A stretch of DNA of 64,000 nucleotides from assembly GCF_902459685.1 (NCBI RefSeq), contig NZ_CABPSF010000002.1, positions 1,054,001-1,118,000 of the forward strand, written 5' to 3'. Positions within the stretch are counted from its first letter, which is position 1. Every line of letters starts with the position of its first letter. A program made the translations under genes and the position numbers. This document shows positions 20,061-51,209 of the stretch, one piece after another. The stretch is from Pandoraea iniqua. Its GTDB lineage: Bacteria > Pseudomonadota > Gammaproteobacteria > Burkholderiales > Burkholderiaceae. The notes under the pieces were generated by a model. It made no database searches and was not told the origin of the DNA. It saw nothing but the letters and a program-made list of their open reading frames with translations.

Positions 20061-21602
20061 ATGTGTGGCATCGTCGGTGTAGTTTCCAAGTCCCCTGTCA
20101 ATCAGTTCATTTACGATAGCCTGCTGCTGTTGCAGCACCGCGGCCAAGACGCCGCCGGCATTGCGACGACGGATGGCCAGTCGTTCTACATGCACAAGGG
20201 CAACGGCATGGTGCGCGACGTGTTCCGCACGCGCAACATGCGCGACCTGCCGGGCCAGGTGGGTATCGGTCAGGTGCGCTACCCGACGGCCGGTTCGTCG
20301 AGCGCCGCGCAGGCTCAGCCGTTCTACGTGAATGCCCCGTACGGCATCGTGCTCGCGCACAACGGCAATCTGACGAACTGGGAACAGCTCAAAGACGAGA
20401 TGTTCCGCATCGACCGCCGTCACATCAACACGACCTCCGACTCTGAAGTGCTGCTCAACGTGCTCGCGCACGAGTTGCAGCAAAGCTCGCTCGAAGGCCT
20501 GAGCGTGCCGTCGCTGTTCGAAGCCGTGCGCGGTGTGCATCGCCGCCTGCGTGGCTCGTACGCGATTGTCTCGATCATCTCCGGTTTCGGTCTGCTCGCG
20601 TTCCGCGATCCGAACGGTATCCGTCCGCTGTGCATCGGCCGCTTCGAAGGCCCGAACGGCACGGAGTGGATGGTGGCGTCGGAGTCGGTGGCACTCGAAG
20701 GCATGGGCTTCGCGTTCGAGCGCGACGTCAAGCCGGGCGAGGCGATCTTCATCAGCAACGACGGCGAACTGACCTCGCAGCAATGCGCGGAAGCCACGTC
20801 GCTGCATCCCTGCATTTTCGAACTCGTGTATCTGGCCCGTCCTGACTCGGTGCTCGATGGCGTGGCGGTCTACGACGCGCGTCTGCGCATGGGCGACTAT
20901 CTCGCCGAGAAGATTCGCCGCGAGATCGATTACAAGGACATCGACGTCGTGATGCCGATTCCGGACTCGAGCCGCCCGGCAGCCATGCAGGTTGCCAAGC
21001 GTCTGGGCCTGAATTATCGCGAAGGCTTTTTCAAGAACCGCTACGTTGGCCGTACCTTCATCATGCCCGGTCAGGCGATGCGCAAGAAGTCGGTGCGCCA
21101 GAAGCTCAACGCCATGCGCGTCGAGTTCAAAGACAAGAACGTGCTGATCGTCGACGACTCGATCGTGCGCGGTACGACCAGTCAGGAAATCGTGCAGATG
21201 GCGCGCGACGCCGGTGCCCGTAAGGTGATCTTCGCGTCGGCGGCACCGCCCGTGAAATTCCCGAACGTGTACGGCATCGACATGCCGACGCGCAGCGAAC
21301 TGGTGGCCCACGATCGCAGCGACGAAGAAGTGGCGCGCATCATCGGTGCCGACGAACTGATTTATCAGGACGTCGAGGACATGAAGGCCGCCGTGCGCGA
21401 CATCAACCCGGCGCTGACCGACTTTGATGCCTCGTGCTTCGATGGCAACTACATCACGGGCGACATCACCGTCGAATACCTGAACCGTCTGGAGCAGCAA
21501 CGCAAGGCGCCGAAGGCGTCGGTCGAGCGCGATGCCGGCGACAATGGTGATGGTGGCGAGGGTGACGAAAACGAGCCCCGCGGGGCTCAGCTCGGCCTGT
21601 AA
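20061..21602 (+). CDS. purF: Amidophosphoribosyltransferase
   Basis: First enzyme of de novo purine synthesis, transferring glutamine amide nitrogen to PRPP. The 513 aa protein begins MCGIVGVV, so processing exposes the N-terminal cysteine nucleophile (class II glutamine amidotransferase). The C-terminal phosphoribosyltransferase domain shows VLIVDDSIVRGTTS. The last about 30 residues are acidic and low-complexity. It is the end of the folC-dedD-cvpA-purF run. Confidence 0.98.
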   Translation: MCGIVGVVSKSPVNQFIYDSLLLLQHRGQDAAGIATTDGQSFYMHKGNGMVRDVFRTRNMRDLPGQVGIGQVRYPTAGSSSAAQAQPFYVNAPYGIVLAHNGNLTNWEQLKDEMFRIDRRHINTTSDSEVLLNVLAHELQQSSLEGLSVPSLFEAVRGVHRRLRGSYAIVSIISGFGLLAFRDPNGIRPLCIGRFEGPNGTEWMVASESVALEGMGFAFERDVKPGEAIFISNDGELTSQQCAEATSLHPCIFELVYLARPDSVLDGVAVYDARLRMGDYLAEKIRREIDYKDIDVVMPIPDSSRPAAMQVAKRLGLNYREGFFKNRYVGRTFIMPGQAMRKKSVRQKLNAMRVEFKDKNVLIVDDSIVRGTTSQEIVQMARDAGARKVIFASAAPPVKFPNVYGIDMPTRSELVAHDRSDEEVARIIGADELIYQDVEDMKAAVRDINPALTDFDASCFDGNYITGDITVEYLNRLEQQRKAPKASVERDAGDNGDGGEGDENEPRGAQLGL

Positions 21603-21720
21603 GGCCAATGGCTGAGCGCGCCGCTCAGACCGGACGGCGGGCGCGCTATGGCGCCAGAGGCCGTCCAGCAGCGCAAGGAGGGATTTTCCTTCCATGCCTG
21701 CAACGTGCTACACTGCTTTT

Positions 21721-21781
21721 CACGTCGATTTGATTTCAGCTTGCGGACGTGGGGGAACATCCCCGAAACAGCTAAAGCGAG
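21721..21781 (+). promoter_or_regulatory. SAM-II type riboswitch upstream of metZ
   Basis: CACGTC (21721-21726) pairs with GACGTG (21746-21751) to form the outer stem. Its loop holds GATTTG at 21727-21732 and GCTTGC at 21739-21744, both hallmarks of the SAM-II (metA motif) aptamer. After an inserted GGGG/CCCC hairpin (21752-21764) comes the conserved GCTAAA (21771-21776). The following GCGAG (21777-21781) can pair with CTTGC (21740-21744) to close the H-type pseudoknot. SAM-II aptamers control methionine genes by binding S-adenosylmethionine. The gene downstream is metZ and a terminator lies between, so SAM-dependent attenuation is expected. The inserted hairpin is the unusual part. Confidence 0.83.
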
Positions 21782-21802
21782 GCCTAGACAGATGGATTTC
21801 GA

Positions 21803-21840
21803 GCCCGTTTTGCTGACAAGCGAAACGGGCTTTTTCTTTT
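21803..21840 (+). terminator. Intrinsic terminator in the metZ leader
   Basis: A 12-bp stem (21803-21814 with 21819-21830, one T-G pair) closes on a GACA loop and is followed by TTTTTCTTTT. It lies 17 bases before the metZ start codon, right after the SAM-II type aptamer. It is the likely expression platform; the competing anti-terminator pairing is not obvious by eye. Confidence 0.85.
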
Positions 21841-21856
21841 TGAAACGAGATACACG

Positions 21857-23053
21857 ATGGACTCCTTCGATTTCGATACCCTGGCGGTGCGCGCGGGCAC
21901 GCAGCGCTCCGAGTTCGGTGAGCATTCCGAGGCGCTGTACCTGACCTCGAGCTTCGTCTTCAAGAGCGCGGCCGAGGCTGCCGAGCGCTTCGCGCACTCG
22001 GAAGAGGGCTTCACCTATTCGCGCTTCACCAACCCGACGGTGTCGATGTTCCAGGACCGTCTGGCAGCACTGGAAGGCGGCGAGGCCTGCATGGCCACCG
22101 CCTCGGGCATGGCCGCGATTGTCTCGGTCGTGATGACGGCCCTGTCGGCCGGCGATCACCTCGTCAGCTCGCAAAGCATCTTCGGCTCCACGCTGAACGT
22201 GTTCTCGACGATCTTCAGTCGTTTCGGCGTGGAGACGACCTTCGTCGATCCGACCGATCTCGACGCGTGGCGCGCCGCGATCAAGCCGAACACGAAGATG
22301 TTCTTCCTCGAAACCCCGTCGAACCCGCTCACCGACATCGCGGACATCGCCGCCATCGGCAAGATTGCGAAGGAAGCGAACGCCTTGTTCGTCGTCGACA
22401 ACTGTTTCTGTACGCCGGCGTTGCAGCGTCCGATCGAATACGGTGCAGATGTGGTCGTGCACTCGGCCACCAAGTATCTCGACGGTCAGGGCCGCGTGTT
22501 GGGCGGCGCTATCGTGGGCACGAAAGATTTCATCATGGGCAAGGTCTTCCCGTTCGTGCGCAGTGCCGGCCCGACGCTCTCGGCGTTTAACGCGTGGGTG
22601 ATTCTGAAGGGCATGGAAACGCTGTCGCTGCGCATGGAGCGGCAATCGGCCAGCGCACTGACCGTGGCGCAATGGCTGGAGCAGCAACCGCAAGTGGCAC
22701 GCGTGTTCTACCCGGGCCTGCCGTCGCACCCGCAATACGAACTCGCGCAGCGTCAGCAGAAGGCGGGCGGTGCCATCGTCGCGTTCGAACTGAAGGGCGC
22801 CACGCCGGCCGAGCAACGCGAAAACGCGTGGCGCGTGATCGACAACACGCGCGTGCTGTCGATTACCGGCAACTTGGGCGATACGCGTACGACCATCACG
22901 CACCCGGCCAGCACCACGCACGGCCGTATCACGCCGGAAGCGCGCGCTGCTGCGGGGATTACGGAAGGGTTGATTCGTCTGGCGGTGGGGCTTGAGTCGC
23001 CCGCCGACATTCAGGCCGATCTGTCGCGCGGCTTTGCGCCGAACGCGCAATAA
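21857..23053 (+). CDS. metZ: O-succinylhomoserine sulfhydrylase
   Basis: PLP enzyme of the Cys/Met metabolism family (398 aa) that makes homocysteine directly from an activated homoserine and sulfide. The PLP lysine is K206 in [11 protein letters not shown]. Other family blocks are [13 protein letters not shown] and the GGAI/SLG region. The start [29 protein letters not shown] is typical of MetZ rather than MetB. It is preceded by a SAM-II type riboswitch, which supports a methionine role. A hisC paralogue follows after 16 bp. Confidence 0.95.
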
Positions 23054-51115: not shown

Positions 51116-51209
51116 GGAGACGTGGCCGAGAGGTCGAAGGCACTCCCCTGCTAAGGGAGCATCTGGGCCAAAACCTGGATCGAGGGTTCGAATCCCTCCG
51201 TCTCCGCCA
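51116..51209 (+). tRNA. tRNA-Ser(GCT)
   Basis: The acceptor stem GGAGACG pairs with CGTCTCC, followed by the discriminator G and an encoded CCA at 51207-51209. The anticodon stem-loop CTCCC-CTGCTAA-GGGAG places anticodon GCT at 51150-51152, reading AGC/AGT serine codons. The T arm is GAGGG-TTCGAAT-CCCTC. The long variable arm between positions 51160 and 51180 is as expected for a class II serine tRNA. Total length is 94 bases. Confidence 0.97.

Follow-up and report, generated by a model that had tools for sequence, protein, structure and literature searches.

The leader of metZ in the analysed DNA of Pandoraea iniqua (the window, 64,000 nucleotides) is, as judged by homology and by its predicted pocket, a SAM-II riboswitch in a hairpin-bearing form, and as such would bind S-adenosylmethionine (SAM). 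We put the probability that it is a SAM-II OFF switch with a hairpin gained in loop L3 at the foot of stem P1 at roughly 0.88. This reading draws on the anatomy of the leader, its homology, its conservation, compensatory changes among relatives and the complementarity of its strands, and on these grounds the leader should both bind SAM and switch. It lies at 21721-21841, between purF (20061-21602) and metZ (21857-23053), both assigned with NCBIfam models. A SAM-II type riboswitch with an inserted hairpin before metZ had been proposed by a sequence-only reading of the window, and sequence and relatives support it; the outer stem and the GATTTG, GCTTGC and GCTAAA elements are all found where that reading had placed them. 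From 5' to 3', P1/L1, the hairpin, GAAACA and GCTAAAGCGAGG are followed by a terminator stem of 14 pairs and its U-rich tail. The individual features are as follows.

21709..21714, plus strand: candidate -10 box TACACT, which would place the RNA start at about 21720, i.e., at P1.
21721..21726, plus strand: 5' strand of P1, CACGTC, pairing with 21746-21751 (fold and homology to compact SAM-II).
21727..21745, plus strand: L1 and 5' strand of P2, GATTTGATTTCAGCTTGCG, containing GAUUU (G8 and U10-U12 of 2QWY) and UUGC (U20-C23).
21746..21751, plus strand: 3' strand of P1, GACGTG (fold and homology to compact SAM-II).
21752..21764, plus strand: inserted L3 hairpin, GGGG-AACAT-CCCC (fold and comparison of the insert with relatives).
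21765..21770, plus strand: residual A-rich L3 strand, GAAACA (comparison with relatives).
21771..21780, plus strand: 3' strand of P2, GCUAAA (21771-21776; G42-A47 of 2QWY) plus GCGA (homology, covariation and cited residues).
21769..21784, plus strand: predicted 5' strand of an antiterminator, pairing with about 21802-21815 (duplex energy and transcript folds).
21801..21841, plus strand: intrinsic terminator, a 14-pair stem (21801-21832) and a U-rich tail (fold and terminator scan).
21857..23053, plus strand: metZ, O-succinylhomoserine sulfhydrylase, the controlled gene, with its ATG at 21857 (726.7 bits against a cutoff of 522).

The fold energy of the leader has a z score of -3.18, and none of 200 shuffles folded as well. 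In 23 of 24 same-genus loci, TACACT is found no more than 25 bases upstream of the P1 core; a scan with the sigma-70 consensus gave no promoter match in the region of the candidate -10 box.

The metZ leader shares with SAM-II (RF00521; crystal structure 2QWY) the stem P1, the GAUUU of L1, the UUGC/GCUAA pseudoknot, GCUAAA, an A-rich L3 and an association with met genes; indeed, metZ is itself a methionine/SAM gene. The Rfam SAM_alpha model of RF00521 reaches only 13.4 bits (E 1.2; cutoff, 36) on the leader at lax limits and covers P1-L1 only, and the gathering score thus leaves the leader outside that family. A SAM_alpha scan without a significant match had been named by the sequence-only reading as an outcome that would count against it, and nominally this is what was obtained, but a compact model (R2) does find the site. 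R2 was built from 29 compact SAM-II RNAs, none of them from Pandoraea's family and 28 of them scoring above the Rfam cutoff. In the 64-kb window it gives the metZ leader 35.0 bits (E 4.2e-8) and the next-best site 10.3 bits, and in the whole 6.3-Mb genome the metZ leader ranks first (E 4.2e-6); by this score the leader is homologous to accepted SAM-II members. Furthermore, a compact metZ leader from another family with the same core (L025) scores 45.2 bits with SAM_alpha, above the cutoff. Unlike the compact RNAs, in which about 11 nt of L3 run along P1, the metZ leader has a 19-nt L3 that begins with a 13-base hairpin, so that the A-rich strand is retained in a shortened form of 6 nt. Compactness of L3 is a feature of size, and we know of no dependence of SAM binding on it.

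In the excerpted text of PMC3764141, the pocket residues U10-U12, U20-C23 and G42-A47 are described as completely conserved, and G8 as part of a base triple; all 14 of these pocket and triple residues are kept in the metZ leader (GAUUU, UUGC and GCUAAA). The 2QWY residue numbers were assigned to letters of the leader by motif and with the 2QWY sequence. Riboswitch variants that have changed their ligand are known in general, and the insert is unusual, as might be expected of a SAM-II-shaped RNA that had come to recognise another ligand, such as S-adenosylhomocysteine or a different metabolite of the methionine pathway. However, every pocket residue named in the excerpts of PMC3764141 is unchanged, and the genes behind related leaders are the usual ones for methionine. 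We therefore consider a changed ligand quite improbable, and SAM the expected ligand of the metZ leader.

The pseudoknot had been placed by the sequence-only reading between CTTGC and GCGAG, a register that is off; the homologous register was used instead, in which UUGC (21741-21744) pairs with GCUAA (21771-21775), and C21737 and U21736 pair with G21779 and A21780, respectively. Together with P1, this P2 gives an H-type pseudoknot. Covariation was computed on 74 distinct L1/P2 combinations. The P2b pair 36-80 is formed in 66 of these, against 54.9 (sd 1.8) in shuffles (0 of 2,000 as good), as U-A, U-G, C-G, A-U or G-C. Pair 37-79 is formed in 74/74 but hardly varies and is not significant (182 of 2,000 shuffles as good), while pairs 35-81, 34-82 and 33-83 were no better than shuffles in the same 74 combinations. 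As only 36-80 covaries and the pairs beyond do not rise above shuffles, P2b is short here, with one junction base more than in SAM-II members of the phylum's other classes. P1 is nearly invariant within Pandoraea.

The extra GGGG-AACAT-CCCC hairpin, which the sequence-only reading had held to be missing from the compact core, is present here and absent from the compact SAM-II RNAs aligned. Its arms are GGGG (21752-21755) and CCCC (21761-21764), and A21756-U21760 may form a fifth pair. In Pandoraea's family, the insert follows the 3' strand of P1 and precedes the A-rich strand. Inserts were compared in leaders found with a regular expression that requires GATTT, TTGC and GCTAAAG, so that conservation of those letters reflects selection of the leaders. 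Among the 121 leaders found in this way, 64 distinct inserts of at least 15 bases (counted after the inner five P1 pairs) form a mean of 4.61 contiguous pairs, against 3.21 (sd 0.12) when 3' strands were swapped and the pairing offset was re-chosen as for the observed strands (0 of 500 as good); as the leaders are related, counts over them are not independent events. Leaders with fewer than five P1 pairs were dropped from the hairpin counts, e.g., L194, whose insert GGAGC-UUCG-GCUCC has a UUCG loop, and the compact locus L042 was missed by the expression used for alignment A3. L035 and L056 each gave a second match that looks fortuitous and is not among the 64. On this evidence, the 64 inserts are predicted stems at the L3 position with compensatory changes.

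The inserts differ widely in size. Short ones carry GNRA loops (GGG-GCAA-CCC, GGG-GCGA-CCC and GGG-GUGA-CCC), and the largest L3 regions of Pandoraea's family reach 75-89 bases. The latter were observed in the MetZ-type leaders L141, L144 and L146 of a neighbouring genus (g20), with several stems before GCTAAAG. MetZ-type leaders of Pandoraea's family keep 5-7 nt from the hairpin to GCUAAA; in metX leaders, in Undibacterium and in two metagenome-assembled genomes (MAGs) this strand has 10-13 nt. This difference in the residual strand between groups of leaders suggests that the insert arose more than once. Inserts at the L3 position were also seen in L094, L098, L102, L107, L112, L114, L115, L123, L130 and L131, the carriers being Undibacterium, one Nitrosomonadaceae MAG (with a weak stem) and two Burkholderiales MAGs (L114 and L123); this distribution, too, suggests a repeated origin. 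In a phylum-wide search, SAM_alpha matched 46 of 249 genomes at an E value of ≤1e-4; the places listed, most of them from other classes, span 74-81 bases and, given that span, have no such insert, although a search with this model can lose inserted forms. Two alphaproteobacterial loci (L104 and L128) are compact too.

The hairpin lies at the pocket-distal end of P1, on which it is probably stacked, and leaves the pocket bases in place. A more far-reaching proposal is that it constitutes the third helix of a SAM-II sub-class, of repeated origin and kept under selection, that alters the working of the aptamer, and that the terminated leader may also act as a small RNA (sRNA) in trans. We regard this as speculative and rather unlikely; if it were true, the third helix could stack under P1 and speed or stabilise folding, or the large inserts could dock something. 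The hairpin form marks a position at which the SAM-II pseudoknot can accommodate an additional helix.

Within the genus, the leader was found by DNA similarity in 24 of 25 genomes, including that of P. iniqua, and a MetZ start is present in all 24 loci. A model of 14 Pandoraea sequences (R1) matches 31/32 same-genus genomes, 14 of which trained it, a denominator that assumes the no-match list to be ordered by kinship; the sole genome without a match is 1.2 Mb in size. In Pandoraea's family as a whole, R1 matches 208 of 398 genomes at an E value of ≤0.01. Across Burkholderiales, SAM_alpha matches 167 of 300 genomes at an E value of ≤0.1, a limit at which 2 of 14 control genomes match as well, and scores above its cutoff in 51/300 and in none of the 14 controls. 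R2, which was run on Burkholderiales only, matches 221/300 genomes at an E value of ≤0.001. The difference between 51 genomes above the RF00521 cutoff and 221 with R2 suggests that this cutoff understates the spread of SAM-controlled methionine synthesis in Burkholderiales. At an E value of ≤0.1, R2 also matches 67 of 77 sources, mostly leaders of Pandoraea's family, and gave no match in the other 10 (L147, L152, L154, L158, L160, L161, L204, L212, L213 and L214).

Most of the thirty loci L028-L057 are compact and have the form GCGCC-GATTTGA-n-CAGCTTGCGGGCGCG-TTAAAAATACC-GCTAAAGCG. According to family models, the next genes of four compact relatives are metX (L028), metZ (L033), metK (L041) and metH (L055, partial). 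The metK and metH leaders, which come from other Burkholderiales families, add targets beyond the metX and metZ named in the text available of Leyn 2014.

An Rfam sRNA family falls on the same DNA segment as the metZ leaders, but its model, Bp2_287 (RF02424), runs on the opposite strand and is filed as an sRNA. In the window, the best of all lax Rfam matches is that of RF02424 to the minus strand, which at 55.3 bits (E 1.1e-11) stays under the RF02424 cutoff of 70. It matches 17 of 20 leaders tested, 11 of them above the cutoff, and all 17 matches lie on the strand opposite the leader; the three leaders without a match at an E value of ≤0.01 are all metX leaders. An excerpt of PMC10987360 gives Bp2_287 as another name of RIT77, an RNA of 135 bases that is expressed in Burkholderia cenocepacia, and of BTH_s31; BTH_s31 is listed also in PMC4035088. 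The link of RIT77 and BTH_s31 to the metZ leader rests on that synonym in PMC10987360 together with RF02424. The terminated metZ leader would be about the size of RIT77.

These matches, and the listing of RIT77 and BTH_s31 as expressed in Burkholderia (PMC10987360 and PMC4035088, both in excerpt), could be taken to mean that the genuine transcript is a small RNA on the strand of RF02424 and that the features of the leader are merely its reverse complement. Such a small RNA is, in our judgement, slightly less probable still than a changed ligand. The match is opposite the leader in 17/17 loci, and the compact leader L025 has its above-cutoff SAM_alpha match (45.2 bits) in the sense direction at the very place where RF02424 scores 30.7 bits, below its cutoff, in antisense. 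Furthermore, the minus strand of 21600-21860 has no terminator-like site, and only in the orientation of metZ can sense be made of the pocket, the gene context and the terminator. RF02424 looks like a family modelled on the wrong strand.

The terminator that had been described as perfect and 17 bases before metZ was recovered, but its stem of 14 pairs includes G-U pairing and its tail ends 15 bases from the ATG. Counting terminator-like sites gives a weaker argument for it, with one observed against 0.4 expected in shuffles. Many SAM-II members have predicted terminators downstream, as stated in an excerpt of PMC9373788. Here, a terminator is present in 86 of 119 leaders, a total that includes the fortuitous-looking matches of L035 and L056, both without a terminator. 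Among the remaining 33, 15 gain one when loops of up to 44 bases are allowed, and 18/119, including the metX leaders of Undibacterium, have none even then.

The 3' strand of P2 is complementary to the 5' arm of this terminator. In the window, 21771-21783 forms a duplex of -12.5 kcal/mol with that arm, and in L001, which is identical to the window over the query, the duplex between P2 strand and terminator arm has a z score of -2.77. Over the 86 leaders with a terminator the mean z score is -1.71, with 65 leaders below -1 and 2 above +1. Folding of the growing transcript, with a program that knows no pseudoknots, placed the pairing of 21769-21784 with about 21802-21815 in the minimum-energy fold at transcript ends 21818 and 21825, in folds that retain both P1 and the hairpin; at end 21832 this antiterminator pairing was replaced by the terminator. 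Without SAM, the 3' strand of P2 (21769-21784) would engage the terminator's 5' arm, permitting read-through into metZ. With SAM, the P2 pseudoknot would hold this strand, the terminator would form, and transcription would end with the release of an approximately 120-nt leader RNA. Given the complementarity of the two strands, SAM binding should favour termination, and the leader would act as an OFF switch on methionine synthesis. A short frame (23 protein letters) runs from 21792 through the terminator, and similar ones are the first open frame past the aptamer in most Pandoraea leaders listed, as might be expected if translation of a leader peptide, and not a ligand, controlled the terminator. 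This is the least probable of the alternatives, since the frame has no methionine beyond its first residue, and leaders L163-L202 from other genera keep the aptamer core with no such first open frame listed.

The SAM-II OFF switch proposed here resembles the metZ leader of Sinorhizobium meliloti, for which the excerpted text of PMC9373788 predicts SAM-dependent termination and which gives rise to RZ, an sRNA that increases at high SAM. Gene, aptamer class and predicted termination with release of a leader sRNA are the same; an L3 hairpin goes unmentioned for S. meliloti in that excerpt. The SAM-II long loops family (RF01726), named for its longer loops, may share its design with the metZ leader, a comparison made from its listing in excerpts of PMC2864571, which gives Bacteroidetes and marine samples as sources; the RF01726 model had no match up to an E value of 10 in 21600-21900.

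In betaproteobacteria, the portions available of Leyn 2014 (PMC4239095) describe a metXZ element in metX and metZ leaders, with a pseudoknot of regions 1+4 and 2+6 and a terminator, and tabulate it for 8/8 Burkholderia and 6/6 Ralstonia genomes. There, metXZ is presented as new, with no ligand assigned, and SAM_alpha is stated to occur in Rhizobiales and Rhodobacterales only. The metX leader of the P. iniqua genome fits this description, and metXZ is probably the same RNA as the present type of leader, as compared by text description. SAM-II in betaproteobacteria was mentioned already in passages of PMC2258182 and PMC2704228. The sequence-only reading had considered a betaproteobacterial SAM-II with a hairpin worth describing, which holds for the hairpin variant but not for the betaproteobacterial occurrence, which is in print and common. 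Within the open PMC text searched, seen in part, no L3 hairpin was described and neither Bp2_287 nor metXZ was equated with SAM-II. As far as that search goes, the hairpin form and its match by RF02424 on the opposite strand are new. The hairpin variant merits description, chiefly for the way it connects records that were filed wrongly: it links a SAM-II riboswitch that had been missed, an sRNA family of Rfam that looks to be on the wrong strand, Burkholderia sRNAs and, probably, the orphan element of 2014, and SAM is a testable ligand for all of these.

A second SAM-II-like leader was observed in the same genome, outside the window, before metX (L061, G000:C1:434529-434640). The start codon of metX, identified by family models from the first 200 residues of MetX, is about 200 bases past the start of the aptamer. 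The hairpin of L061 (about 39 bases) is in the same place in L3, is larger than that of metZ and is followed by AATACAAATGCG-GCTAAAG. R2 matches this leader in two halves only, the first ranking second in the whole genome (25.7 bits, E 0.0017) and the other half reaching 19.4 bits (E 0.09). A fourth R2 match (C1:486735; 17.5 bits, E 0.3) was rejected, GCTAAAG being absent from the surrounding 320 bases. At lax limits, SAM_alpha gave only weak matches in this genome, and all 14 control genomes match there too; the best (19.8 bits) was rejected as lying inside a dnaK-like frame, which we take to be dnaK, while the fourth (14.4 bits) is P1 of the metX leader. As no more than a weak 15-base stem follows its aptamer, the metX leader may act differently from the metZ leader. 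Within the window, the sole Rfam match above a gathering cutoff is a tRNA gene of 91 bases at 51116-51206.
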